Below, piece after piece: positions 16,357 through 29,042 of a DNA stretch of 64,000 bases (position 1 is its first letter; every line of letters begins with the position of its first letter). This DNA is from Haloglomus salinum (GTDB lineage: Archaea; Halobacteriota; Halobacteria; Halobacteriales; Haloarculaceae). Under the pieces are notes generated by a model. That model did no database searches, had not been told where the DNA came from, and saw only the letters and a program-made list of their open reading frames with translations. Position numbers and translations under genes: made by a program. Location: the NCBI RefSeq assembly GCF_024298825.1, contig NZ_CP101153.1, forward strand, positions 3,534,001 to 3,598,000. Direction: 5' to 3'.

Positions 16357-16385
16357 CGGGGGTTCCTTAGCCGCCAGTGATAGTC

Positions 16386-16793
16386 GTGAGCAATCCATGG
16401 ATCGCTATCGGGGCGCTAGCGGTCGTGGGGGTGGCGATTCCCCTGACGATGATCGCCGTCTCCGCACTCCTCCGCCCGAGCGTGCCCGAGCAGGGAAAAC
16501 GAGCCGTCTACGAGTCCGGCGAGATTCCGACGGGCAACACGCGCATCCGCTTCAACATCCAGTACTACATGGTCGCGCTGTTGTTCGTCATCTTCGACAT
16601 CGAGACCGTCCTCATCTTCCCGTGGACGGTCATCTACCGGGACGCCGTGAGCCAGTTCGGTCTGGCGAGCGCGCTGCTGCCGATGCTGATATTCATCGGT
16701 GTCCTGGTTATCGGACTCGCCTGGGCGTGGCGCAACGGCGCCGTCCGCTGGGTCGCGAGCCCACGCGGCGAAACCGGACAATCGGCTGACTAA
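16386..16793 (+). CDS. nuoA: NADH dehydrogenase-like complex I, subunit A
   Basis: Membrane subunit of respiratory complex I, 135 residues with three predicted helices (first NPWIAIGALAVVGVAIPLTM). The conserved loop YESGEIPTGNTRIRFNIQYY corresponds to the ND3 quinone-site loop, though the usual Cys of that loop is Ser here, followed by FVIFDIETVLIFPW. GTG at 16386 gives the usual N-terminus MSNPWIAIG; an in-frame GTG at 16377 would add three residues. First gene of nuoA-B-CD-H-I. Haloarchaeal complex I lacks NuoEFG, so the electron donor is not NADH by the usual route. Confidence 0.93.
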   Translation: MSNPWIAIGALAVVGVAIPLTMIAVSALLRPSVPEQGKRAVYESGEIPTGNTRIRFNIQYYMVALLFVIFDIETVLIFPWTVIYRDAVSQFGLASALLPMLIFIGVLVIGLAWAWRNGAVRWVASPRGETGQSAD

Positions 16794-16797
16794 ACCA

Positions 16798-17481
16798 ATG
16801 AGTTCCGACAACACCACACCGACAGAGTCGACGCAGGAAGCCCGCATGGGCGACGGCGTCGACTCCCGCTTCAACTCGAAGCTCCGCGAGGCGTTCGGCT
16901 CCACCCCGTTCATCCTCACAAAGTTCGACAAGTTCATGAACTGGGTCCGGGGCTCCTCGATGTTCATGCTGCAGTTCGGCATCGCCTGCTGCAGCATCGA
17001 GATGATGCACACCTACGCGGTCAAGCACGACCTCGACCGCTTCGGGGCCGGCGTGCCCCGGGCGTCCCCACGACAGGCGGACGTCATCATCGTTCCAGGG
17101 ACCATCGTCTCGAAGTTCGCCCCGCGGATGAAGCGCGTCTACGACCAGATGCCCGAGCCGAAGTTCGTCGTCGGGATGGGCTCCTGTACCATCTCCGGCG
17201 GCCCCTTCCAGGAGGGCTACAACGTCATCAAGGGCGCGGAAGAGGTCATCCCGGTGGACATCCACGTCCCCGGCTGCCCGCCGCGGCCCGAGGCGCTGGT
17301 CTACGGCGTCGCCAAACTGCAGGAGCGCATCGCCAACGGCGAGAGCGCCCCCGTCACCGTCAAGCCGTACGAACTGGAGCAGTTCGGCGACCTCGAGGGC
17401 GACGAACTCGTACAGCACCTCGCCGACCAGATCGACGAGGAGGACCTCGTCATGCGGTACAACTGGGCGGACTCGCCCTGA
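16798..17481 (+). CDS. nuoB: Complex I subunit B
   Basis: 227-residue peripheral subunit carrying iron-sulfur cluster N2, next to the quinone site. The four ligands are visible: the CC pair in FGIACCSIEMM, the Cys in VVGMGSCTISGG and the Cys in IHVPGCPPRPEAL. An acidic N-terminal extension of ~25 residues and a ~40-residue C-terminal tail (KPYELEQFGDLEGDEL) are haloarchaeal features. The ATG at 16798 lies four bases after the nuoA stop codon. Tight spacing to nuoCD (ATG four bases after the stop) indicates one transcript. Confidence 0.95.
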   Translation: MSSDNTTPTESTQEARMGDGVDSRFNSKLREAFGSTPFILTKFDKFMNWVRGSSMFMLQFGIACCSIEMMHTYAVKHDLDRFGAGVPRASPRQADVIIVPGTIVSKFAPRMKRVYDQMPEPKFVVGMGSCTISGGPFQEGYNVIKGAEEVIPVDIHVPGCPPRPEALVYGVAKLQERIANGESAPVTVKPYELEQFGDLEGDELVQHLADQIDEEDLVMRYNWADSP

Positions 17482-17485
17482 TACC

Positions 17486-19174
17486 ATGAGCCTGGAAGAC
17501 CCTACCAAACCCGAGGCCGAGGCGGAACCGGTCGGCGAGACCGCCGCCGGCCTCGACTACGACGCGCTCGAAGCGCTGCTGGGCGACCTGGCCATCGGCC
17601 GCGAGTCCCACATCAACGCCGAGGCGTTCGTCGTCCGGCCGGACGACGTGGCGGAAGCGCTCATCACGCTCCGCGACGAGGCCGGCTTCGACCACTGTTC
17701 CTGCGTCACCGCACAGGAGTACGAGGACCGCTACGAGTCCATCTACCACCTCCGGAAGTACGACGACCCGACCCAGGAGGTCGGCGTCGTCGTGCCCACC
17801 TCGCGTGACGACCCGGTCAGCCAGTCCGGCAACGCGGCGTACCGGACCGCCGATTGGCACGAGCGCGAGGCCTACGACCTCGTCGGCATCGAGTACGACG
17901 ACCACCCGGACATGCGCCGTATCCTCCTGCCGGAGACGTGGCAGGGCCACCCGCTGCGCAAGGACTACAACCAGGAGCAGCCCCAGGTCGTCAGTCTCCG
18001 CGAGCACGCGAACCCGCTGCAGGACGACCACCGGGGCGGGGAGAACTCGGACACGATGTTCCTCAACATCGGCCCCCACCACCCCGCCACCCACGGCGTC
18101 CTGCACCTGAAGACGACGCTGGACGGCGAGACGGTCGCCGACGTCGAATCCGACATCGGCTACCTCCACCGGTGCGAGGAGCAGCTCTGCCAGCAGGGGA
18201 ACTACCGGCACCAGATAATGCCGTACCCCGACCGCTGGGACTACATCTCGGCCGGTATCCTCAACGAGTGGGCGTACGCCCGCACGGCCGAGGACCTCGC
18301 GGACATCGACGTGCCAGAGTACGCACAGGTCATCCGGACCATGTCCGCGGAGATGTGTCGCATCGCGAGCCACATGCTCGCGGTCGCGACGTTCGCGCTG
18401 GACGTCTACGGCGACTTCACGGCCATCTTCATGTACGCGATGCAGGACCGCGAGAACATGCAGAACCTGCTGGAGGACCTGACCGGCCAGCGGCTCATGT
18501 TCAACTACCTCCGGCTGGGTGGCGTCGCGTGGGACCTGCCCGAGCCCCGCGAGGAGTTCTTCGAGAAGACCCGGGACCTGCTGGACGACCTCCCGGAGCG
18601 CCTGGAGGAGTACCACAACCTCATCACGTCGAACGAGATCTTCCAGATGCGGTGTGTCGACACCGGCGTCCTCGAGCCCGAGGTCGCCAAGCAGTACGGC
18701 GCAACCGGGCCGGTCGCCCGTGGCTCCGGCATCGACTACGACCTCCGGCGCGACGACCCGTACGGCTACTACGACGAGCTGGACTGGGACGTCGTGACCG
18801 AGGACGGCTGCGACAACTACGCGCGCGTTCTCGTCCGGATGCAGGAGGTCGAGGAGTCCGCGAAGATCATCCAGCAGTGCGTCGACCTGCTCGAGGACTG
18901 GCCCGAGGAGGAGCGCACCATCCAGTCGAACGTGCCGCGCACCCTCAAGCCCGAGCCGGACACGGAGATCTACCGCTCGGTCGAGGGCGCGAAAGGTGAA
19001 CTCGGCATCTACATCCGCTCGGACGGAACCAGCACCCCGGCACGGTTCAAGATCCGGTCGCCGTGCTTCTCGAACCTGCAGACCCTGCCCGAGATGAGCG
19101 AGGGTGAGTACATCCCCGACCTCATCGCGTCGCTGGGCTCGCTGGACATCGTCCTCGGGGAGGTGGACCGGTGA
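17486..19174 (+). CDS. nuoCD: Complex I fused subunit C/D
   Basis: 562-residue natural fusion. Residues ~20-175 are NuoC (30-kDa subunit: ESIYHLRKYDDPTQEVGVVVP, then TADWHEREAYDLVGIEYDDHPD and RRILLPETWQGHPLRKDY). Residues ~190-562 are NuoD (49-kDa subunit: NIGPHHPATHGVLHLKTTLD, YLHRCEEQLCQQ, and the closing LIASLGSLDIVLGEVDR). The His-rich PHHPATHG motif lines the quinone cavity. The fusion is normal in haloarchaea and enterobacteria. Its stop overlaps the GTG start of nuoH by four bases, indicating translational coupling. Confidence 0.95.
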   Translation: MSLEDPTKPEAEAEPVGETAAGLDYDALEALLGDLAIGRESHINAEAFVVRPDDVAEALITLRDEAGFDHCSCVTAQEYEDRYESIYHLRKYDDPTQEVGVVVPTSRDDPVSQSGNAAYRTADWHEREAYDLVGIEYDDHPDMRRILLPETWQGHPLRKDYNQEQPQVVSLREHANPLQDDHRGGENSDTMFLNIGPHHPATHGVLHLKTTLDGETVADVESDIGYLHRCEEQLCQQGNYRHQIMPYPDRWDYISAGILNEWAYARTAEDLADIDVPEYAQVIRTMSAEMCRIASHMLAVATFALDVYGDFTAIFMYAMQDRENMQNLLEDLTGQRLMFNYLRLGGVAWDLPEPREEFFEKTRDLLDDLPERLEEYHNLITSNEIFQMRCVDTGVLEPEVAKQYGATGPVARGSGIDYDLRRDDPYGYYDELDWDVVTEDGCDNYARVLVRMQEVEESAKIIQQCVDLLEDWPEEERTIQSNVPRTLKPEPDTEIYRSVEGAKGELGIYIRSDGTSTPARFKIRSPCFSNLQTLPEMSEGEYIPDLIASLGSLDIVLGEVDR

Positions 19175-20244
19175 GCCTCCCGACGGTCGCACTGCAGGGC
19201 GGTACGCCACTGCCGACGCTGCTCAAGAACCTGCTCGGGCTCCCGGACGGCCCGGCGTTCGAGTTCGTCGCGGCGCTCATCGCCTCGTCGGTCATCGCGG
19301 CGGCCCTGCTAGGGCTCGTCGCGGTGTCCGGTATCTGGGGCAAGCGGAAGATCACCGCCGCATTCACGGACCGAATCGCAGTCAACCGGCACGGCCCGTA
19401 CGGCCTGCTCATCATCGTGGCCGACGCCGTCCGGCTCCTGTCGAAGGAACTCGTCGTTCCGGAGGGCGTCGACCGCCCGGCGTGGGACATCGCACCCATC
19501 GTCATGGCCGGCTCGGCGCTGCTGGGCTTCGCGGTCATCCCGATGGGGAACGGCCTCCAGATCGCCGACCCCGAGGTCGGCCTGGCCTACGTCTTCGCGG
19601 TCGCCTCCATCGCCAGCGTCGGGCTGGTGATGGCCGGCTACTCCTCGAACAACAAGTACTCCCTGCTCGGGGGCCTGCGCGCGGTCGCACAGAACCTCGC
19701 CTACGAGATTCCGCTCATCATCACGGCGGCGTCGGTGGTCATCTTCGCCGGCACGCTCCAGATGAGCGGCATCGTCGAGGCACAGACCGCGACGCTCGTC
19801 TCGGTCGCAGGCATCGACATCCCCTCGTGGTACGCCTTCGTCAACCCGTTCGCGTTCGTCCTGTTCATGGCCGCGAACCTGGCAGAAGTGGGTCGCAACC
19901 CCTTCGACATCCCGGAGGCACCCACGGAAATCGTCGCCGGGTGGCAGACGGAGTACTCCTCGGTCTACTTCGTGCTCTGCTACCTCTCGGAGTTCATCCA
20001 CATCTTCCTTGGCGGCGCCATCATCGCGACCATCTTCCTCGGCGGCCCGGCCGGTCCGGTTCTCCCGGGCGTGGTCTGGTTCATCATCAAGATGGTCGCG
20101 GTCTACCTGTTCACCCAGTGGACTCGCTCGGCGGTCCCCCGGGTTCGCATCGACCAGCTCATCGAGATCGGCTGGAAGGGGATGCTCGTGCTGTCGTTCG
20201 CCAACCTCGTCCTCACGGCCGTTATCGTGGGAATCACCGTCTAA
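19171..20244 (+). CDS. nuoH: Complex I subunit H
   Basis: 357-residue membrane subunit (ND1) with about eight helices; it forms the end of the quinone tunnel. Recognisable segments include TDRIAVNRHGPYGLLIIVADAV (cut to family form KITAAFTDRIAVNRHGPYG), LAEVGRNPFDIPEAPTEIV and the loop WQTEYSSVYFVLCYLSEF. The GTG at 19171 overlaps the nuoCD stop (GTGA). The next gene nuoI starts four bases after its stop. Confidence 0.95.
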   Translation: MSLPTVALQGGTPLPTLLKNLLGLPDGPAFEFVAALIASSVIAAALLGLVAVSGIWGKRKITAAFTDRIAVNRHGPYGLLIIVADAVRLLSKELVVPEGVDRPAWDIAPIVMAGSALLGFAVIPMGNGLQIADPEVGLAYVFAVASIASVGLVMAGYSSNNKYSLLGGLRAVAQNLAYEIPLIITAASVVIFAGTLQMSGIVEAQTATLVSVAGIDIPSWYAFVNPFAFVLFMAANLAEVGRNPFDIPEAPTEIVAGWQTEYSSVYFVLCYLSEFIHIFLGGAIIATIFLGGPAGPVLPGVVWFIIKMVAVYLFTQWTRSAVPRVRIDQLIEIGWKGMLVLSFANLVLTAVIVGITV

Positions 20245-20248
20245 GACA

Positions 20249-20710
20249 ATGATAGGCGTCCTCAAATCCATGGCCACGACGATGAAGCACGCGCTCGACG
20301 GCGAGACGTTCACCGTCGCGTACCCAGAAGAAACACCCGAAGTGTCGCCGCGCTTCCGCGGCGTCCACAAGTTCTCCCAGGAGCGGTGCATCTGGTGCCG
20401 CCAGTGCGAGAACGTCTGTCCGAACGACACCATCCAGATCGTCACTGACGAGCAGCGCAACGGCGAGCAGTACAACCTCCACATCGGCCAGTGCATCTAC
20501 TGCCGGCTCTGCGAGGAGGTCTGCCCCGTTGACGCCATCCTGCTCACCCAGAACTTCGAGTTCACGGGCGATACCAAGGACGACCTCGCCTACTCGATGG
20601 AGGAACTGAAGAACGTTCCCTGGTACAAGGACATCGACCCGCTCGCCTCGCGCGAACCGGACCGCGGCGCGTGGATCGGCGAGGGCGACGGCGAGATCGA
20701 CTACCAGTAG
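20249..20710 (+). CDS. nuoI: Complex I subunit I, 2[4Fe-4S] ferredoxin type
   Basis: 153-residue subunit passing electrons to NuoB. Both tetranuclear cluster motifs are intact: CIWCRQCENVCP and CIYCRLCEEVCP, about 30 residues apart. The N-terminal amphipathic helix MIGVLKSMATTMKHALDG and the acidic tail ending GEGDGEIDYQ are typical. It is the last gene of the first nuo block; a run of six T residues follows 18 bases after the stop, and the rest of the operon resumes only at 22899. Confidence 0.95.
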   Translation: MIGVLKSMATTMKHALDGETFTVAYPEETPEVSPRFRGVHKFSQERCIWCRQCENVCPNDTIQIVTDEQRNGEQYNLHIGQCIYCRLCEEVCPVDAILLTQNFEFTGDTKDDLAYSMEELKNVPWYKDIDPLASREPDRGAWIGEGDGEIDYQ

Positions 20711-20728
20711 AGCTTCTTCACCGCGAGC

Positions 20729-20734
20729 TTTTTT
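20729..20734 (+). terminator. Oligo-T terminator after nuoI
   Basis: Six consecutive T residues 18 bases after the nuoI stop codon, inside GCGAGCTTTTTTGACGG. Archaeal transcription ends at such runs. It suggests that transcription of the first nuo block stops before the inserted genes. Confidence 0.5.
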
Positions 20735-20774
20735 GACGGCTCGGGTGGCCTTGCCGGCCGGCTTCGCCGTCCTC

Positions 20775-20791
20775 AGAAATCGAAGATTTCT
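20775..20791. repeat. Perfect hairpin AGAAATC-GAA-GATTTCT
   Basis: Seven-base stem with a three-base loop, the first of a set of short hairpins in the nuoI/lipoprotein junction. Confidence 0.8.
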
Positions 20792-20801
20792 GATTGGCTG
20801 C

Positions 20802-20820
20802 GGGAGAGCTTCGCTCTCCC
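20802..20820. repeat. Perfect hairpin GGGAGAGC-TTC-GCTCTCCC
   Basis: Eight-base stem with a three-base loop, 10 bases after the previous hairpin. The same short-loop design makes a shared origin or function likely. Confidence 0.8.
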
Positions 20821-20871
20821 GAACGGCCGTCTGCGGTCACCGCTCGCCGCAAAAAACGTTCAGAAAAAACG

Positions 20872-20896
20872 CCGGCCCTCGCTGCGCTCCGGCCGG
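20872..20896. repeat. Inverted repeat CCGGCC ... GGCCGG around CTCGCTGCGCTCC
   Basis: Six-base arms with a 13-base interior that itself contains a GC-TGC-GC dyad. Third hairpin of the cluster. Confidence 0.65.
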
Positions 20897-20900
20897 TGAA

Positions 20901-20919
20901 ACCGCGCCTGCGGCGCGGT
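20901..20919. repeat. Hairpin CCGCGCC-TGC-GGCGCGG
   Basis: Seven-base perfect stem (20902-20908 with 20912-20918) and a three-base loop, extended by an A/T pair at the ends. Fourth hairpin of the cluster. Confidence 0.75.
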
Positions 20920-21053
20920 ATGCAGGATGGGTCAGAAACCACCTATTATTAAAATAAATCAATAAAGGTGGAATATTATGGGTTTCTGATGGACGTATCG
21001 GTCAAAATTTCATATCACTGACAGTGCAGTCGTCTCGGGCGACTGCAACTGAC

Positions 21054-21794
21054 TCACCGCGCGGTCGCGTTCGCCCGTGCCGCCTCCAGCCACTCCGGTT
21101 CGGGCACCGCTGTCGACCCGATGTCCGTCACCCGGAACGTCCGGTTCATCGACCCCTCGCCGAGGGCGATGGAATCCTCGTAGGAGCGGATGGCCCCGTC
21201 GCCGGTCACCCGGAGCGTCGCGGTGAAGTTTGTCTCCGAGCCGTCGCCGGTCTCACCAGGGAACCCGGTGCTCTCGGCCCGGAAGACGTACAGGCGTTCC
21301 CCGAGGAGTCCACCCTCGCGTCGGACGAAGGTGTAGTTCGGGTCCGGTGGGGCGACCAACAGTTCTAGCCCGTTCGGGGCGCCGAGCGTCTCGTTCACCG
21401 GCCCGCGGGCGCCGGGTCGGAGCACACGGTAGGCCACATCGTGGGGCGTCTCGACGCGACGGTAGACCGTGCCGTTGGCGATGAAGAGCTCCGAGGTTCG
21501 GTTCCCCCGCGTCTCGATGGAGTGGTACGGGGTTCCACCAGTACCGATACGGACCTCCGTCCGGCCCTGGCGTGGGGGTAGCGTCACGTTCTCCGGGGTC
21601 CGCTCCAGGCTCACGTTCACCCGAGAGACGACCGTGTAGCTCCGGTTGTCCAGCGCGGACTGGTGTCCGATCACCAGCGCGGTCTCGTTCACGTGCGTCT
21701 CGTTCGTTCCCGGTGGGTACTCCCCGCCACCTGTCAGCCCGCTGCATCCCGACAGTACGACCAGACAGCAGACGAGAACGGCCGTCGTTCGCAT
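21054..21794 (-). CDS. Secreted lipoprotein, haloarchaeal family of unknown function
   Basis: 246 residues from the ATG at 21794. The signal MRTTAVLVCCLVVLSGCSG has a lipobox (LSGC), predicting a Sec-exported lipoprotein. The mature part is beta-rich and carries several N-glycosylation-type sequons (NET, NRS, NVT, NRT, NFT). A core such as SYTVVSRVNVSLERTPENV and RSYEDSIALGEGSMNRTFRV resembles LolA/LppX-like lipoprotein folds common in haloarchaea. It sits on the opposite strand inside the complex I gene cluster and is convergent with nuoI. Function unknown. Confidence 0.75.
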   Translation of the reverse strand: MRTTAVLVCCLVVLSGCSGLTGGGEYPPGTNETHVNETALVIGHQSALDNRSYTVVSRVNVSLERTPENVTLPPRQGRTEVRIGTGGTPYHSIETRGNRTSELFIANGTVYRRVETPHDVAYRVLRPGARGPVNETLGAPNGLELLVAPPDPNYTFVRREGGLLGERLYVFRAESTGFPGETGDGSETNFTATLRVTGDGAIRSYEDSIALGEGSMNRTFRVTDIGSTAVPEPEWLEAARANATAR

Positions 21795-21993
21795 CGCTTC
21801 GGCGGACAGATGACCACGGCAAGCCGTTTCTGCCGTGTATGTCGGCCGATTTAATCGGGCTGGCAGGAACCGTAGGCCCGAGGTGACGAACCGACCACGC
21901 AGCGCGACCAGCTGCCGTCCGGACAGAGCTGTCGACCGACATCGCCCAGCGACCGAACACTCACCCACTTCGGTTCGCCAGGGGTGCCCCGAT

Positions 21994-22665
21994 TCACGCG
22001 ATATCGGACTCGAAGACCAGCACGTAGCTGTGGTCGTAGCCGTAGCCGTAGACGCCATCAGCCCCCGTTTCACCGTCCCAGGCGACGACGTGTTCGCCGG
22101 TGAACCGGAAGCGCGGGAGCTCCCGAATCGCGTCCGCGAGGTCCCAGGCGAACGTCGTCGTCCGACCGTCGTGTTCCAGGTTCGCCGCTTCGACCAGCAG
22201 TGTCCCGTCTCTGTGGAAGCGTGACCCGAGGCTCCCGAACACGGCCGCGAGGTCGTCGAGATACGTCTCGTAGTCGCTCTCGCCGTCGTGGTTCTGGAGT
22301 GGGTCGCGGGCATCGGACTCGTGCATGAACGGTGGCGAGGTGAGCACGCAGTCGAGTGTCGGGACGTCGTCGGGGATATCCGTGGCCGTCCCGTGGTGGA
22401 GTCGGTCCGGATGTCGGAGGCGGTCGCAGGCGTAGGCGGCGCGGTCGGCGTCGTACTCGATACCCCAGGCCTTGCGGTCGAGTGACTCCGCGACCGTCAG
22501 CGTGGTTCCGAAGCCGGCGAAGGGGTCGAGGAGCCGGTCACCGTGCTCGGTGTACTCGCTGACCAGCCGCCGGACGAGTGCGGGCGGCATCCGGACGTCG
22601 CCGCCCTCGACCCACTCGGGGAGGGGCGTCGGATGGTCGTGGGAGAGGTGGAGGGTCGTTCGCAC
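21994..22665 (-). CDS. DNA methylase-like SAM methyltransferase (N4-cytosine/N6-adenine type)
   Basis: 223 residues from a GTG at 22665. An ATG at 22731 is in frame and would add 22 residues, but the conserved part starts at VRTTLHLSHDHPTPLPEW. SAM motif I is LLDPFAGFGTTLTVAES, and the catalytic motif IV is LTSPPF, in the order seen in DNA amino-methylases. Short length and absence of a restriction gene suggest a solitary methylase or an RNA/DNA methylase of the D12/N4-like group. It lies inside the split nuo locus on the opposite strand, divergent from nuoJ1 (233 bases). Confidence 0.78.
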   Translation of the reverse strand: MRTTLHLSHDHPTPLPEWVEGGDVRMPPALVRRLVSEYTEHGDRLLDPFAGFGTTLTVAESLDRKAWGIEYDADRAAYACDRLRHPDRLHHGTATDIPDDVPTLDCVLTSPPFMHESDARDPLQNHDGESDYETYLDDLAAVFGSLGSRFHRDGTLLVEAANLEHDGRTTTFAWDLADAIRELPRFRFTGEHVVAWDGETGADGVYGYGYDHSYVLVFESDIA

Positions 22666-22715
22666 GGGTGGCCGATGGTCGGCCCGTCGACATGATTCCC
22701 ACGGCTCCCGAGTCA

Positions 22716-22750
22716 GGTCACTTCTGGTCACCTCTGGTCATCACAGGTCG
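22716..22750. repeat. Direct repeats GGTCA at exact 10-base spacing
   Basis: GGTCACTTCT, GGTCACCTCT, GGTCATCACA and GGTCG start at 22716, 22726, 22736 and 22746. The repeats fall on one DNA face and lie in the divergent region between the methylase-like gene and nuoJ1, so a regulator array is plausible. Confidence 0.65.
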
Positions 22751-22898
22751 CCGACGGAGCCGAGGCGGGAGCCACGCCTGGCCCGGGCCGAGGCGGCGAT
22801 TTCTCGCACCTGGGGCGGTGATACGGCACTTCCGAGAGAACATACGCACGCGCCCGCGGATGGCAAGTTTCAAAGCCGTTCTGGATAAGGGAACGACA

Positions 22899-23171
22899 AT
22901 GGCACTAGCAGAGACACTGGCGTTCGCGCTGTTCGCCCTCGTGACCGTGGGGAGCGCGCTGGGCGTCGTGTTGGTCCGCGACATCTGGCACGCGGCGCTC
23001 CTCCTCGGGGTGGCGCTCGTCAGCGTTGCGGTCCACTTCGTCATGCTGCGCGCCGAGTTCCTCGCGGCGATGCAGATCCTGGTGTACGTTGGTGGGGTAC
23101 TCGTCCTCATCACGTTCGCCGTGATGCTGGTCCGCGAGCAAGGGGCCGACACGGAGGTGGTCGGCCAATGA
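22899..23171 (+). CDS. nuoJ1: Complex I subunit J, N-terminal part
   Basis: 90-residue membrane protein with three helices (ETLAFALFALVTVGSALGVV, then HAALLLGVALVSVAVHFVML and LVYVGGVLVLITFAVMLV) matching the first half of NuoJ/ND6; the YVGGVLVLITFAVML segment is the family signature. Haloarchaea encode NuoJ as two genes, this and the next. ATG at 22899 is used; an in-frame ATG at 22860 would add 13 polar residues. It starts the second nuo block. Confidence 0.9.
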   Translation: MALAETLAFALFALVTVGSALGVVLVRDIWHAALLLGVALVSVAVHFVMLRAEFLAAMQILVYVGGVLVLITFAVMLVREQGADTEVVGQ

Positions 23172-23563
23172 CCAGTCGCCCACGACTGGAGCGAAACAGT
23201 CGGCAGGTCGTCGGCCTGCTGTCGCTCGTCCTGTTCGCCGTCCTGTCCGCCGTGTTCCTCACGGCGGAGTTCGGGGGGGCTGCCGGCTTCCCCGGCGACG
23301 GCTCCATCACCGCCGCCATCGGCTACGCGATGTTCAACCTCGACGCGGGGGCCTTCCCCTCCGAGGGATTCCTCGTGACGTTCGAGATCATCGACCTCGT
23401 GCTGGTGGCGGCGCTGGCTGCTGCCGTCATGCTCGCCCGTCGAGAGGGGGGTTCGCTCCCGCTCCGGACGGATGGCGGTGAGCCCGGAGGGCGAGCCTCG
23501 TCGGACCGACAGTCCGACGGCGGCACGGAGCGCACGGGCGACGAGGACGGGGGTGACCGGTGA
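23168..23563 (+). CDS. nuoJ2: Complex I subunit J, C-terminal part
   Basis: 131 residues, overlapping nuoJ1 by four bases (ATGA). Two helices are clear (VGLLSLVLFAVLSAVFLTAE and FEIIDLVLVAALAAAVMLAR), corresponding to the second half of NuoJ. A polar Gly/Asp/Arg-rich tail of ~40 residues follows, typical of the haloarchaeal protein. Its TGA overlaps the ATG of nuoK. Confidence 0.88.
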   Translation: MTSRPRLERNSRQVVGLLSLVLFAVLSAVFLTAEFGGAAGFPGDGSITAAIGYAMFNLDAGAFPSEGFLVTFEIIDLVLVAALAAAVMLARREGGSLPLRTDGGEPGGRASSDRQSDGGTERTGDEDGGDR

Positions 23564-23868
23564 TGGCGGTCCCGGTCCAGTACTACCTGGTCCTCTCGGC
23601 CGCGGTGTTCTGTATCGGCCTGTTCGGCATCCTGACGCGGCGGAACGCGCTGATGTTCCTGATGAGCGTCGAGCTGATGCTGAACGCTGCGAATATCAAC
23701 CTCGTCGCGTTCTCGTTCTACCACGGGAACCTGACCGGGCAGGTGTTCAGCCTGTTCACGATGGCGCTGGCGGCCGCCGAGGTGGCGGTCGGCATCGGCA
23801 TCATCCTCGTCCTGTATCGCAACTTCTCGGACGTGGACGTGACGAAAGCGACGACACTGAGGTGGTAA
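23563..23868 (+). CDS. nuoK: Complex I subunit K
   Basis: 101-residue three-helix subunit (ND4L) of the proton-pumping arm. The conserved RNALMFLMSVELMLNAANIN segment carries the membrane glutamate, and MALAAAEVAVGIGIILVLYR carries the second one. Start ATG at 23563 overlaps the nuoJ2 stop; a GTG directly before it is also in frame. Spacing to nuoL is one base. Confidence 0.95.
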   Translation: MAVPVQYYLVLSAAVFCIGLFGILTRRNALMFLMSVELMLNAANINLVAFSFYHGNLTGQVFSLFTMALAAAEVAVGIGIILVLYRNFSDVDVTKATTLRW

Positions 23869-23869
23869 C

Positions 23870-25942
23870 ATGGCTGCAGAAGGAGGAATATTCACGTTCG
23901 CGCCGGCCATCGCGGTGCTGCCGTTCGTATCGTTCCTGGTCGCCCTGTTCTTCGGTGACCGGATGCCGAAGAAGGGGGCGTTCGCCGGAATCGCGGCGAC
24001 CGCCGGGTCGCTGCTGCTGTCGCTGGTCATGCTCGCGCAGGTCGCGAGCGGGCACGCCTACCACATGGAACTGTACACGTGGGTGGGCGGAGAGGGCGTG
24101 CCGTTCGAGCTGACGTTCGGCATCCTGCTCGACCAGCTCTCGACGCTGATGCTGGTCATCGTCTCGACCATCGCGTTCCTGGTCCACATCTTCTCGCTGG
24201 GCTACATGAACGACGAGAACGAGACCGGCCTGCCCCGCTACTACGCCGAGCTGGGCCTGTTCACGGCGAGCATGCTCGCCTTCGTCTTCTCGGACAACAT
24301 CCTGATGGCGTTCATGTTCTTCGAGCTGGTGGGCCTCTGTTCGTACCTGCTCATCGGCTTCTGGTTCCGCCGCTCGGGCCCGCCGAGCGCGGCGAAGAAG
24401 GCGTTCCTGGTCACCCGCTTCGGTGACTACTTCTTCCTCATCGGCGTCGTCGGCATCTTCGCCACCTTCGGTACGGGGATGTTCGGCGGCCCGGGCGTCG
24501 AGGAGTCGTTCCCCGGCCTCGCCGAGGCCGCCATCGCCGGTAACGCGACGGTCAACACGTTCTTCGGCCTCTCACCGCAGGCGTGGTTCGGCGTCCTCGG
24601 GCTGCTCGTGCTGGGCGGCGTGATGGGCAAGTCCGCCCAGTTCCCGTTCCACACGTGGCTGCCGGACGCGATGGAGGGTCCGACCCCCGTCTCGGCGCTC
24701 ATCCACGCGGCGACGATGGTCGCGGCCGGTGTCTACCTCGTCGCCCGGATGTACGGGTTCTACGCCCTGCTTCCGACCGTCCTCGCCATCATCGCCTTCG
24801 TCGGCGGCTTCACCGCGCTGTTCGCCGCCTCGATGGGCGTCGTCAAGGACGAGATCAAGCAGGTGCTTGCCTACTCCACCATCTCCCAGTACGGCTACAT
24901 CATGCTCGGGCTGGGTGGCGGTGGCTACGTGGCCGGGGTCTTCCACCTGACCACACACGCGTTCTTCAAGGCGCTCCTGTTCCTCGGTGCCGGTTCGGTC
25001 ATCATCGCGATGCACCACAACGAGGACATGTGGGACATGGGCGGCCTCAAAGAGAAGATGCCCGTGACCTACTACGCGTTCCTCTCGGGCAGCCTGGCAC
25101 TGGCGGGCATCGTCCCGTTCTCCGGCTTCTGGTCGAAGGACGAGGTACTGTACGAGACGCTGGTCCACGGCCTCGGCGGGAGCCCGCTCCTGCTGGGCGC
25201 GTACGCCATGGGCCTGCTGGCCGTGTTCTTCACGGGCTTCTACACGTTCCGCATGGTCCTGCTGACGTTCCACGGCGAGCCGCGGACCGACCTCGCCGAG
25301 GACCCCGAGCCGGTTCGCTGGAACGTGAAGGTGCCCCTGGCGATTCTGGGGGTCCTCGCCGCGGTCATCGGCGTCATCAACCTCGTGCCGGTCCACAAGG
25401 TCGTGGACAGCGTGCCGGAGTTCCTCCACGACTGGCTCTACCACGGGCCGGAGGGACTCAACGGCGAGCACTACGCGACGCTGCTGCACGACGTCGCGGG
25501 GTACACCGCCAACGCCACGTTCGCGGGCGGTGAGCTCGTCTCCATCCTCGTCTCGGCAGCCCTCTCGCTGGGCCTGGCGCTGGCCGGTGCGGGCGTCGCG
25601 CTCGCGCTCTACCGCGGTCCCGAGCCCGAGGAACACACCGAGAAGCTCGGTTCACTCAAGACCTTGCTCTACAACAACTACTACCAGGACGAGTACCAAG
25701 TCTGGCTCGCGCAGGACCTCACCGAGGGGACCGTCGCGAAGAACGCCAAGCGGTTCGACGACGGGGTCGTCGACGGCCTCGTCAACCGCGTCTCCGACGT
25801 GAGTCTCGTCTCCGGGCACTTCCTGCGCCGTATCCAGACGGGCATCGTCTCCAACTACGCGGCGCTCATCACGCTCGGTCTCGTGGTGCTGCTGGTCGCC
25901 TTTGGCATCGCTGGCGGTTGGTTCGGGGGTGTCTTCGCATGA
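23870..25942 (+). CDS. nuoL: Complex I subunit L, antiporter-like
   Basis: 690-residue antiporter-like subunit with about 15-16 helices and the C-terminal lateral helix region. Typical segments are FFELVGLCSYLLIGFWF (membrane Glu), SAQFPFHTWLPDAMEGPTPV (Lys/His pathway), and HAATMVAAGVYLVARMY. The order L-M-N and the one- to four-base spacings are those of a single operon. Its stop overlaps the start of nuoM. Confidence 0.96.
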   Translation: MAAEGGIFTFAPAIAVLPFVSFLVALFFGDRMPKKGAFAGIAATAGSLLLSLVMLAQVASGHAYHMELYTWVGGEGVPFELTFGILLDQLSTLMLVIVSTIAFLVHIFSLGYMNDENETGLPRYYAELGLFTASMLAFVFSDNILMAFMFFELVGLCSYLLIGFWFRRSGPPSAAKKAFLVTRFGDYFFLIGVVGIFATFGTGMFGGPGVEESFPGLAEAAIAGNATVNTFFGLSPQAWFGVLGLLVLGGVMGKSAQFPFHTWLPDAMEGPTPVSALIHAATMVAAGVYLVARMYGFYALLPTVLAIIAFVGGFTALFAASMGVVKDEIKQVLAYSTISQYGYIMLGLGGGGYVAGVFHLTTHAFFKALLFLGAGSVIIAMHHNEDMWDMGGLKEKMPVTYYAFLSGSLALAGIVPFSGFWSKDEVLYETLVHGLGGSPLLLGAYAMGLLAVFFTGFYTFRMVLLTFHGEPRTDLAEDPEPVRWNVKVPLAILGVLAAVIGVINLVPVHKVVDSVPEFLHDWLYHGPEGLNGEHYATLLHDVAGYTANATFAGGELVSILVSAALSLGLALAGAGVALALYRGPEPEEHTEKLGSLKTLLYNNYYQDEYQVWLAQDLTEGTVAKNAKRFDDGVVDGLVNRVSDVSLVSGHFLRRIQTGIVSNYAALITLGLVVLLVAFGIAGGWFGGVFA

Positions 25943-27513
25943 TGATCGAGGCCCTCATCGGGCTCTGCCTGCTGGGCGCAGTCGTCGTCTTCTTCGCGCC
26001 CGACGAGTACGCCGGGAAACTCGCGTTCGGCTGGTCACTCCTGCCACTGGCGCTCTCGGCGCTGATGTACCTCAACTTCGACGGGAGCGGCAACGCGCTG
26101 CTGGGTGGCTCGCTGGCGTTCGAGGAGCAGTTCACCTGGATAACGCTCGGCCCCTACGACCTCTCGTGGTACATGGGGCTGGACGGCATCAGCATGCCGC
26201 TGGTGGTCCTGTCGACGCTGCTGACCTCGCTGGCCATCATGTCGGCGTGGACGCCCATCGCCGAACGACAGAACCAGTTCTACGGGCTGGTCCTGTTCCT
26301 GGAGGCCAGTCTCATCGGCGTCTTCGGCGCGCTGGACTTCTTCGTCTGGTTCGTCTTCTGGGAGGCCGTCCTCATCCCGATGTACTTCCTCGTCGGCATC
26401 TGGGGCGGCGCCCGGCGCAAGTACGCCGCCATCAAGTTCTTCGTCTACACGAACATCGCCAGCCTCGTCCTGTTCATCGGGTTCTTCGGGCTGGTGTTCG
26501 GCCTGGGCGACAGCATCAACTCGCTGGCACTCCCCGAGATCGCGCAGGCGTTGCGGGCGGGTGAACTCGGCTCGCTCGCCGGTGGCCTCATCGGGCCGGA
26601 GCAGCTGGCCCTGCTCGCGTTCGTCGCGATGTTCATCGGGTTCGGCGTCAAGGTGCCCATCGTCCCGTTCCACACGTGGCTGCCGGACGCCCACGTCGAG
26701 GCTCCGACGCCCATCTCCGTGCTGCTGGCGGGCGTCCTCCTGAAGATGGGGACGTACGCGCTGCTGCGGTTCAACTTCACGATGCTGCCGGAGGTCGCGC
26801 GGAACCTCGCCGTGCCCATCGCGGCCATCGCGGTTATCAGCGTCATCTACGGCGCGCTGCTCGCGCTGGCCCAGTCCGACCTGAAGCGCGTCGTCGCGTA
26901 CTCGTCGGTCTCCTCGATGGGATACGTCATCCTGGGGCTCGTCGCCTACACGAGCTACGGGATGGGCGGCGCGACGTTCCAGATGGTGAGCCACGGGCTC
27001 ATCTCGGGCCTGATGTTCGCCTGCGTCGGCGTCATCTACAACATCTCGCACACGCGCGAGATCGGCGACATGGCGGGACTGGCCGAGAAGATGCCCGTCA
27101 CCGTCGGCGCGTTCGTCGCCGGCGCGTTCGCCTACGCCGGCCTGCCGCTGATGGCCGGCTTCGCCGCGGAGTTCTTCATCTTCGTCGGCTCCTTCCAGTC
27201 CACCGTCATCGCCGGCAACGGCATGGCCGTGATGACCGGACTGGCGATGTTCGGTATCGTCATCGTCGCCGGCTACCTGCTGTGGGCGATGCAGCGCTCG
27301 CTGTTCGGCCCGTTCGAGTTCGACGGCGACTACGAGATCACGAAGGCGGCTCGACACGACGTCGTGCCGCTCATCGTACTCATCGTGGTCATCATCGCGC
27401 TCGGGACGTTCCCGAACGACCTGTTCTTCCGGATGATCACGGACGCGGTCGGCCCGCTCGTCGACGGCGCGACGGCTGAGGCCGCCATCGAACTCGGAGG
27501 TGGTTCCCCATGA
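25939..27513 (+). CDS. nuoM: Complex I subunit M, antiporter-like
   Basis: 524 residues, about 14 helices, second antiporter-like pump. Family segments: FFVWFVFWEAVLIPMYFLVG, FGVKVPIVPFHTWLPDAHVE and APTPISVLLAGVLLKMGTYA. The ATG at 25939 overlaps the nuoL stop codon (ATGATGA); the neighbouring ATG at 25942 is equally possible. Overlaps nuoN by four bases at its end. Confidence 0.96.
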   Translation: MMIEALIGLCLLGAVVVFFAPDEYAGKLAFGWSLLPLALSALMYLNFDGSGNALLGGSLAFEEQFTWITLGPYDLSWYMGLDGISMPLVVLSTLLTSLAIMSAWTPIAERQNQFYGLVLFLEASLIGVFGALDFFVWFVFWEAVLIPMYFLVGIWGGARRKYAAIKFFVYTNIASLVLFIGFFGLVFGLGDSINSLALPEIAQALRAGELGSLAGGLIGPEQLALLAFVAMFIGFGVKVPIVPFHTWLPDAHVEAPTPISVLLAGVLLKMGTYALLRFNFTMLPEVARNLAVPIAAIAVISVIYGALLALAQSDLKRVVAYSSVSSMGYVILGLVAYTSYGMGGATFQMVSHGLISGLMFACVGVIYNISHTREIGDMAGLAEKMPVTVGAFVAGAFAYAGLPLMAGFAAEFFIFVGSFQSTVIAGNGMAVMTGLAMFGIVIVAGYLLWAMQRSLFGPFEFDGDYEITKAARHDVVPLIVLIVVIIALGTFPNDLFFRMITDAVGPLVDGATAEAAIELGGGSP

Positions 27514-29042
27514 TGCCCCTACAATCCACAGCCATCGAACCGACCTGGGCGGCGCTCACGCCGGCCCTGGTGCTGGCCGTGTTCGCGCTGCTCCTGTTCG
27601 TACTCGACAGCATCGACCCGGACGACTCGAACAGCGGCCTCCTCGCGGGCACGGCCACCGTCGGCAGCGTCTCGGCGATGATCGTCTCCGGAGCGTTCCT
27701 GCTGCTCGGCATCGGGGCCGGCGACGGGGTCTCGCTGTACGGCGGCCAGCTCGTCGTCGACTCCATGGCGCTGTTCTTCATGTTCATCGCCACCAGCGTC
27801 GCCACCCTGGTCTGTCTCGCGAGCCTCGACTATCTCGAGGGTCGGCAGTACCAGGCGGAGTACTACATCCTCGTGATGCTGGCGACGACCGGGATGACGC
27901 TGATGGCCGCGGCGAACTCGCTGGCCACGATCTTCGTCTCGCTGGAGCTGCTCTCGCTCCCCTCGTACGCGCTCGTGGCGTTCCTCAAGAACGACAAGGG
28001 CAGCGTCGAGGCGGGGATGAAGTACTTCCTCGTCGGGGCGCTCTCCTCGGCGGTGTTCGCCTACGGCGTCTCGCTGGTCTACGGCGTCACCGGCAGCCTG
28101 CTGCTGGAGGAGATCGCGGCGGCCCTGCAGAGCGCCGGTGCGCTCTCGGGGCTGGGCGGCGTCCTCGGCGTCGGCGTGCTGATGGTCGCCGGCGGCTTCG
28201 CGTTCAAGACCGCTTCCGTCCCGTTCCACTTCTGGGCGCCGGAGGCCTACGAGGGCGCACCTGCACCCGTCAGCGCGTTCCTCTCCTCGGCCTCGAAGGC
28301 GGCCGGTTTCGTGGTCCTCTTCCGCGTCTTCATCGTCGCGTTCCCCATCGAGGCGGTCGCGCCGGCCATCGACTGGGTGCTCCTGTTCCAGGTGCTCGCG
28401 GTCGTGACGATGACGCTGGGGAACTTCGCCGCCGCCACCCAGGAGAACGTCAAGCGGATGCTCGCCTACAGTTCGGTCGGGCATGCCGGCTACGTGCTCA
28501 TCGGCCTCGCGGCACTCACGGGTGCCGGCAACGGCGAGATCGTTCTCGGCGCCGGGATGATCCACCTGCTCGTCTACGGCTTCATGAACACGGGTGCGTT
28601 CCTGTTCGTGGCCATGGTCGAGTACTGGGGCGTCGGCCGCACCTTCGAGGACTACAACGGCCTCGCGACGAAGGCACCGGTCGCCTGTGTCGCCATGACC
28701 GTCTTCATGTTCTCGCTGGCGGGGCTCCCTATCGGCGGGGGCTTCCTCTCGAAGTACTACCTGCTCGCCGGCGCGGTCGGCGCGGGCGTCTGGTGGCTCG
28801 CGCTCGTCGCGGCTGTCAACAGCGCGCTGAGCCTGTTCTACTACTCCCGCGTCGTCAAGGCGATGTGGATCGAGGAGCCCAACGGCAACCTCGAGGGGAT
28901 GGACGCGCGTGGCTACCCGACGGGGCTGTACGCGGCCGTCGTCATCGCGGCCGTCGTGACGGTCCTGCTGCTCCCGGCCATCGGCGTCTTCTCCGGCGTC
29001 GCCTTCGACGCGGCGAGCGCCGTGCTGCAGCTCGGGCCCTGA
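27510..29042 (+). CDS. nuoN: Complex I subunit N, antiporter-like
   Basis: 510 residues with about 14 helices, last gene of the operon. Typical segments: ATIFVSLELLSLPSYALVAF, the pump region FAFKTASVPFHFWAPEAYEG and SVGHAGYVLIGLAAL. The ATG at 27510 overlaps the nuoM stop. No nuoE, F or G gene follows, in line with haloarchaeal complex I lacking the NADH-oxidising module. Confidence 0.96.
   Translation: MMPLQSTAIEPTWAALTPALVLAVFALLLFVLDSIDPDDSNSGLLAGTATVGSVSAMIVSGAFLLLGIGAGDGVSLYGGQLVVDSMALFFMFIATSVATLVCLASLDYLEGRQYQAEYYILVMLATTGMTLMAAANSLATIFVSLELLSLPSYALVAFLKNDKGSVEAGMKYFLVGALSSAVFAYGVSLVYGVTGSLLLEEIAAALQSAGALSGLGGVLGVGVLMVAGGFAFKTASVPFHFWAPEAYEGAPAPVSAFLSSASKAAGFVVLFRVFIVAFPIEAVAPAIDWVLLFQVLAVVTMTLGNFAAATQENVKRMLAYSSVGHAGYVLIGLAALTGAGNGEIVLGAGMIHLLVYGFMNTGAFLFVAMVEYWGVGRTFEDYNGLATKAPVACVAMTVFMFSLAGLPIGGGFLSKYYLLAGAVGAGVWWLALVAAVNSALSLFYYSRVVKAMWIEEPNGNLEGMDARGYPTGLYAAVVIAAVVTVLLLPAIGVFSGVAFDAASAVLQLGP

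Follow-up and report, generated by a model that had tools for sequence, protein, structure and literature searches.

The nuo genes of complex I in haloarchaea, where the NADH module (NuoEFG) is absent (PMC8305020), have been described both as two transcription units and as one. In Haloquadratum walsbyi, a transcriptome study proposed two putative polycistronic units, nuoABC/DHI and nuoJ1J2KLMN (PMC5496347), whereas in Haloferax volcanii the genes are depicted as one operon, with a report of a large transcript common to them (PMC6490895; PMC10626798). The nuo locus of Haloglomus salinum has the same gene set in the same order as that of Haloferax volcanii, and is divided at the same boundary, into the same two gene sets, as that of Haloquadratum walsbyi. 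The Haloquadratum units, however, were inferred for one species; in the present case unrelated genes occupy the boundary, and a promoter-like element located there could be followed across about 98 loci. Comparable features have been recorded in haloarchaeal operon-like structures, including internal gaps that have widened and carry promoter motifs, as well as an opposite-strand gene between linked genes, but insertions inside such structures are the rarest single-gene change (9.1%), and nuo is absent from the main text of that study (PMC7760734). The splitting of nuo clusters in prokaryotes is a known general phenomenon, but the available part of the account of it does not discuss the I/J boundary of Halobacteria (PMC12361115).

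The 64-kb window, which is the whole stretch of DNA analysed, is part of the 4.19 Mb chromosome of H. salinum. Among named relatives, Haloglomus halophilum is the closest, with a NuoI that is 99% identical. All components of the 11-gene Halobacteria nuo cluster are present in the canonical order on the plus strand. The first block (16377-20710), identified by codon-model gene calls and translations, consists of nuoA (16377-16793), nuoB (16846-17481), nuoCD (17486-19174), nuoH (19171-20244), and nuoI (20249-20710). The second block (22899-29042), identified by gene calls and tight in nearly all relatives, consists of nuoJ1 (22899-23171, with an ATG start at 22899), nuoJ2 (23168-23563), nuoK (23563-23868), nuoL (23870-25942), nuoM (25939-27513), and nuoN (27510-29042). 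An earlier sequence-only reading had placed the end of the first block at 20710 and the start of the second at 22899, and had assigned a lipoprotein and a methylase-like gene to the opposite strand between them; gene calls, translations and Pfam matches bear this out. The genes are thus not a single contiguous operon, as two minus-strand, non-nuo genes lie at 21054-22665 within the 2188-base spacer between nuoI and nuoJ1. Because both genes recur at the corresponding position in H. halophilum (87-93% identity), the split is not an assembly artefact of a single genome.

The first of the two genes (21054-21794, minus strand) encodes a lipoprotein of 246 aa in the DUF7537 family, as judged by codon usage, a Pfam match (PF24381, E 1.1e-15) and a lipobox-like LSGC. 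Its product is 93% identical to that of the gene at the matching place in H. halophilum, and no match was found in two further Haloglomus genomes searched. The second gene (21994-22665, minus strand) encodes a small N4/N6-type DNA methyltransferase of 223 aa (Pfam PF01555, N6_N4_Mtase, E 8.9e-17; codon usage), or of 245 aa if translation starts at an upstream GTG at 22731. Its translation contains an AdoMet-binding DPFAGFGTT and a catalytic TSPPF, corresponding to the FxGxG-like and SPPF/Y motifs, and its solved relatives include 2zie and 8s9m. The alignment with 2zie falls into two pieces in swapped order (residues 26-82 to 220-276, and 87-157 to 22-94), suggesting that the predicted enzyme has a circularly permuted layout. 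Genes 76-87% identical to it lie within the same gap of three other Haloglomus genomes. The two gap genes are probably unrelated to complex I in function. A role for the methyltransferase in a defence system was considered and set aside; numerous type II methyltransferase models match the protein, chiefly in its AdoMet-binding part, and the search for partner genes covered the gap only.

To what extent the nuoI/nuoJ1 boundary is loose in relatives was assessed from gene order at 80 named nuoI loci and from gap lengths in 140 genomes of the order, drawn from 57 genera. The sequence-only reading held the two blocks to be contiguous in other haloarchaea, which is the case for 81 of the 140 genomes, where the gap is 130 nt or less, and not for the rest. 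The gap measures 131-450 nt in 21 genomes and 450-6000 nt in 24; in 6 more the blocks lie far apart or in reversed order on one contig, and in the remaining 8 of this last group of 14 they lie on different contigs, some of which may reflect assembly breaks. The looseness is specific to this junction within the cluster, as the I/J1 junction is longer than 130 nt at 28 of the 62 loci where nuoI and nuoJ1 are linked (and longer than 450 nt at 15), with nuoJ1 not near in 13 more, versus only 0-3 loci for each of the nine other nuo junctions. In addition, A-B-CD-H-I and J1-J2-K-L-M-N are each tight and in the same order nearly throughout the 80 named relatives. On a NuoB-CD-H-I tree of 78 loci, the joined or broken state has changed at least 10 times, with the direction of change not separable. 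The split is therefore real but neither unusual, as had been supposed, nor peculiar to H. salinum; it is a common and tolerated state. An insertion hot spot at I/J1 was also considered, and is superfluous because the ordinary purE-nuoA boundary is interrupted or lost about as often (24 of 71 loci, versus 28 of 75 for I/J1). The usual block order is reversed in a genome belonging to the same family (G003 C1:1014602-1034427), where nuoJ1 shares the strand of nuoI but is located some 20 kb upstream of it, and two Haladaptatus loci (L068, L114) have an extra B-CD-I cluster that lacks nuoA and nuoH and has no nuoJ-N nearby.

Directly upstream of nuoJ1 in H. salinum is a promoter-like element, GGCAAGTTTCAAAG (22862-22875, plus strand), whose AAA begins 27 nt before the ATG. 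A sequence at this position, such as CGAAATCTTCAAA, resembles a haloarchaeal BRE (CGAAA) and TATA region, and its distance from the ATG is that expected of a leaderless transcript; a BRE of the CGAAA type and mostly leaderless mRNAs have been described for Haloferax (PMC4983044). A BRE/TATA-like pattern is found 27-35 nt before the nuoJ1 ATG in 76 of 98 distinct upstream regions, a descriptive count since the pattern was written after viewing the sequences, with the other nuo genes serving as the control; it is found in none of the upstream regions of ten other nuo genes (53-100 regions per gene) and in 0.4% of shuffled regions. Approximately 8 further nuoJ1 regions match with one or two changes, for a total of about 84 of 98. 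As a signal in the DNA, the element is that of a cluster split by an internal promoter, and it accompanies touching, interrupted and separated blocks alike. Only Natrialbaceae, Halarchaeum, and one further genus lack it, and their gaps all measure -7 to 53 nt. The Natrialbaceae loci (L089, L096-L098, L104, L120, L126) have a short spacer that contains a conserved GCCCGTCCC...AACGGGC inverted repeat instead of the element.

Comparison of H. salinum with H. irregulare shows the limits of the variable DNA. The nuoI genes match up to the stop codon and some 46 nt before nuoJ1 are conserved, whereas all of the DNA in between differs. The element is likewise unchanged in H. irregulare and in two further Haloglomus genomes (G163 and G164), despite their differing gap contents. 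At the other limit, the T-run that had been reported after nuoI is a T6 (20729-20734, plus strand) beginning 18 bases past the stop codon, and is a possible transcription terminator. A T-run of at least 4 within 80 nt after nuoI occurs at 30 of 41 loci with a junction longer than 130 nt versus 1 of 34 with a shorter one, an unequal comparison in that the 80 nt extend into nuoJ1 at touching loci.

The contents of the gap are mostly unrelated from lineage to lineage, and are seen in either orientation. For instance, the gap holds an AI-2E transporter gene in Halorarius, a cupin gene in Natronomonas, an M19 dipeptidase gene in Halomarina, genes for a response regulator and a PCC protein in Haloarcula rara, a class I methyltransferase gene in Halegenticoccus, an NAD kinase/inositol monophosphatase gene in a metagenome-derived genome, and ABC transporter genes and others at other loci. 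Even among five Haloglomus genomes there are four different gene sets: lipoprotein and methyltransferase (H. salinum and H. halophilum), halorhodopsin (H. irregulare), a DUF433 protein with methyltransferase and halorhodopsin (G164), and a hydrolase with methyltransferase and others (G163). The sequence-only reading would have taken the presence of both genes in all close relatives as the mark of a stable lineage trait; this holds only in part, with the methyltransferase found in 4 of the 5 gaps and the lipoprotein in 2. The halorhodopsin is likewise found in 2. As it recurs amid differing gene sets, the methyltransferase gene is, on the genomes compared, the oldest traceable resident of the gap in Haloglomus, and the lipoprotein gene would either have arrived later or have survived in a single pair of species. 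The gap halorhodopsin genes lie at L050:8923-9753 and L205:3298-4125 (H. irregulare and another Haloglomus genome), and the best solved match of the H. irregulare protein is halorhodopsin 5ahy (E 1.8e-117). H. salinum itself has a halorhodopsin gene, 64% identical to the gap version, elsewhere on its chromosome (G000 C1:2737487-2738305). Another genus of the same family has two genomes in which a second nuoCD lies inside the gap (L210:2474-4150, L211:2259-3935).

Most probably, the nuoI/nuoJ1 junction is a long-standing border between two transcription units, where insertions are tolerated and bystander genes have been repeatedly gained and lost. In most haloarchaeal lineages, nuoA-B-CD-H-I and nuoJ1-J2-K-L-M-N would each be transcribed as a unit, the second from its own BRE/TATA-like promoter directly before nuoJ1, assuming that the element is an active promoter and that the T-run terminates transcription. 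Because transcription of the second unit would be independent of the first, insertions between the nuoI terminator and the nuoJ1 promoter would do little harm; genes could come and go, and in some lineages the blocks may even have drifted apart. For Haloglomus, the presumed order of events is that the methyltransferase gene probably entered early and that turnover of its neighbours led to the lipoprotein and methyltransferase pair of H. salinum. RNA-seq of Haloferax volcanii, which places nuo among single large transcripts (PMC6490895), is evidence to the contrary, and where the blocks touch, as in that species, read-through and an internal start may coexist.

The split could instead stem from a unique and recent insertion into what was a single nuo operon in this lineage, forcing the second block to gain a promoter. 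In favour of this, neither gene occupies the gap at any examined locus outside Haloglomus, and the lipoprotein gene is confined to two genomes of the genus. The junction, however, is interrupted by unrelated genes in many lineages, and the nuoJ1 element is already present in lineages with touching blocks and no insertion, including Halorussus, Halobacterium, and Haloferacaceae, making a recent origin very unlikely. The same observation bears on the earlier statement that the blocks need separate promoters. That need is supported, and a candidate second promoter does exist 27 nt before nuoJ1, but there is no support for the split as the origin of the need. Insertion or inversion had both been proposed, and of these, insertion is far likelier, given flanks that match H. 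irregulare around a differing interior. Inversion of a segment that formerly had the opposite orientation, or lay at another position beside nuo, would account for both genes being on the opposite strand, but is scarcely credible, as no mirror arrangement was found at this place in the relatives examined, all four Haloglomus gaps with the methyltransferase gene have it on the minus strand, and gap contents in relatives occur in either orientation.

A further alternative is an ancestral separation, in which touching lineages were joined later, the promoter is a relic, and Natrialbaceae then lost it. The counts of changes on the tree cannot separate gain from loss, and in one divergent family (f9), whose NuoI is about 67-70% identical, the gaps measure 1150-4916 nt, but another (f11, NuoI 68% identical) has a gap of 41 nt. 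For related complexes outside Halobacteria, a single gene cluster is the usual description, which also counts against an ancestral separation, and this scenario is considered unlikely. A similarly doubtful proposal is that selection keeps the boundary as a control point for separate regulation of the membrane-arm genes, with some gap genes (halorhodopsin in two Haloglomus genomes, the second nuoCD of the two genomes mentioned above) placed there for shared regulation of membrane energetics. An old, insertion-tolerant boundary turns an apparent oddity of a single genome into a testable, class-wide statement, that haloarchaeal complex I genes are expressed as two units. Such an arrangement cautions against handling haloarchaeal nuo as one operon, bears on how subunits are balanced within one complex when their genes are not co-transcribed, and makes the gap contents a natural record of how genes turn over at one fixed site.

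The DNA immediately following nuoI is a GC-rich palindromic mosaic (20711-20930; fold z-score -4.6) belonging to a dispersed repeat family, parts of which have 43 matches in the same genome. The approximately 200-nt mosaic extends from the T6 to two A6 runs (20851-20856 and 20864-20869) and further hairpins. Lying between the convergent nuoI and lipoprotein genes, it is terminator-like on both strands, and might serve both genes. Of 26 copies examined, 12 are in convergent gaps, 13 between tandem genes, and 1 between divergent ones; by comparison, 5 of 38 gaps in the window are convergent (Fisher p 0.005). Judged by this repeat, a mobile element carrying both gap genes was rejected, as the repeat is a dispersed family found beside the 3' ends of genes and not the end of an element. 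No known RNA family came near its gathering score in the region. The repeat is also present in the same gap of H. halophilum, and not in that of H. irregulare. Adjoining the mosaic is an AT-rich stretch (20932-20989) bounded by the inverted repeat TCAGAAACC / GGTTTCTGA.
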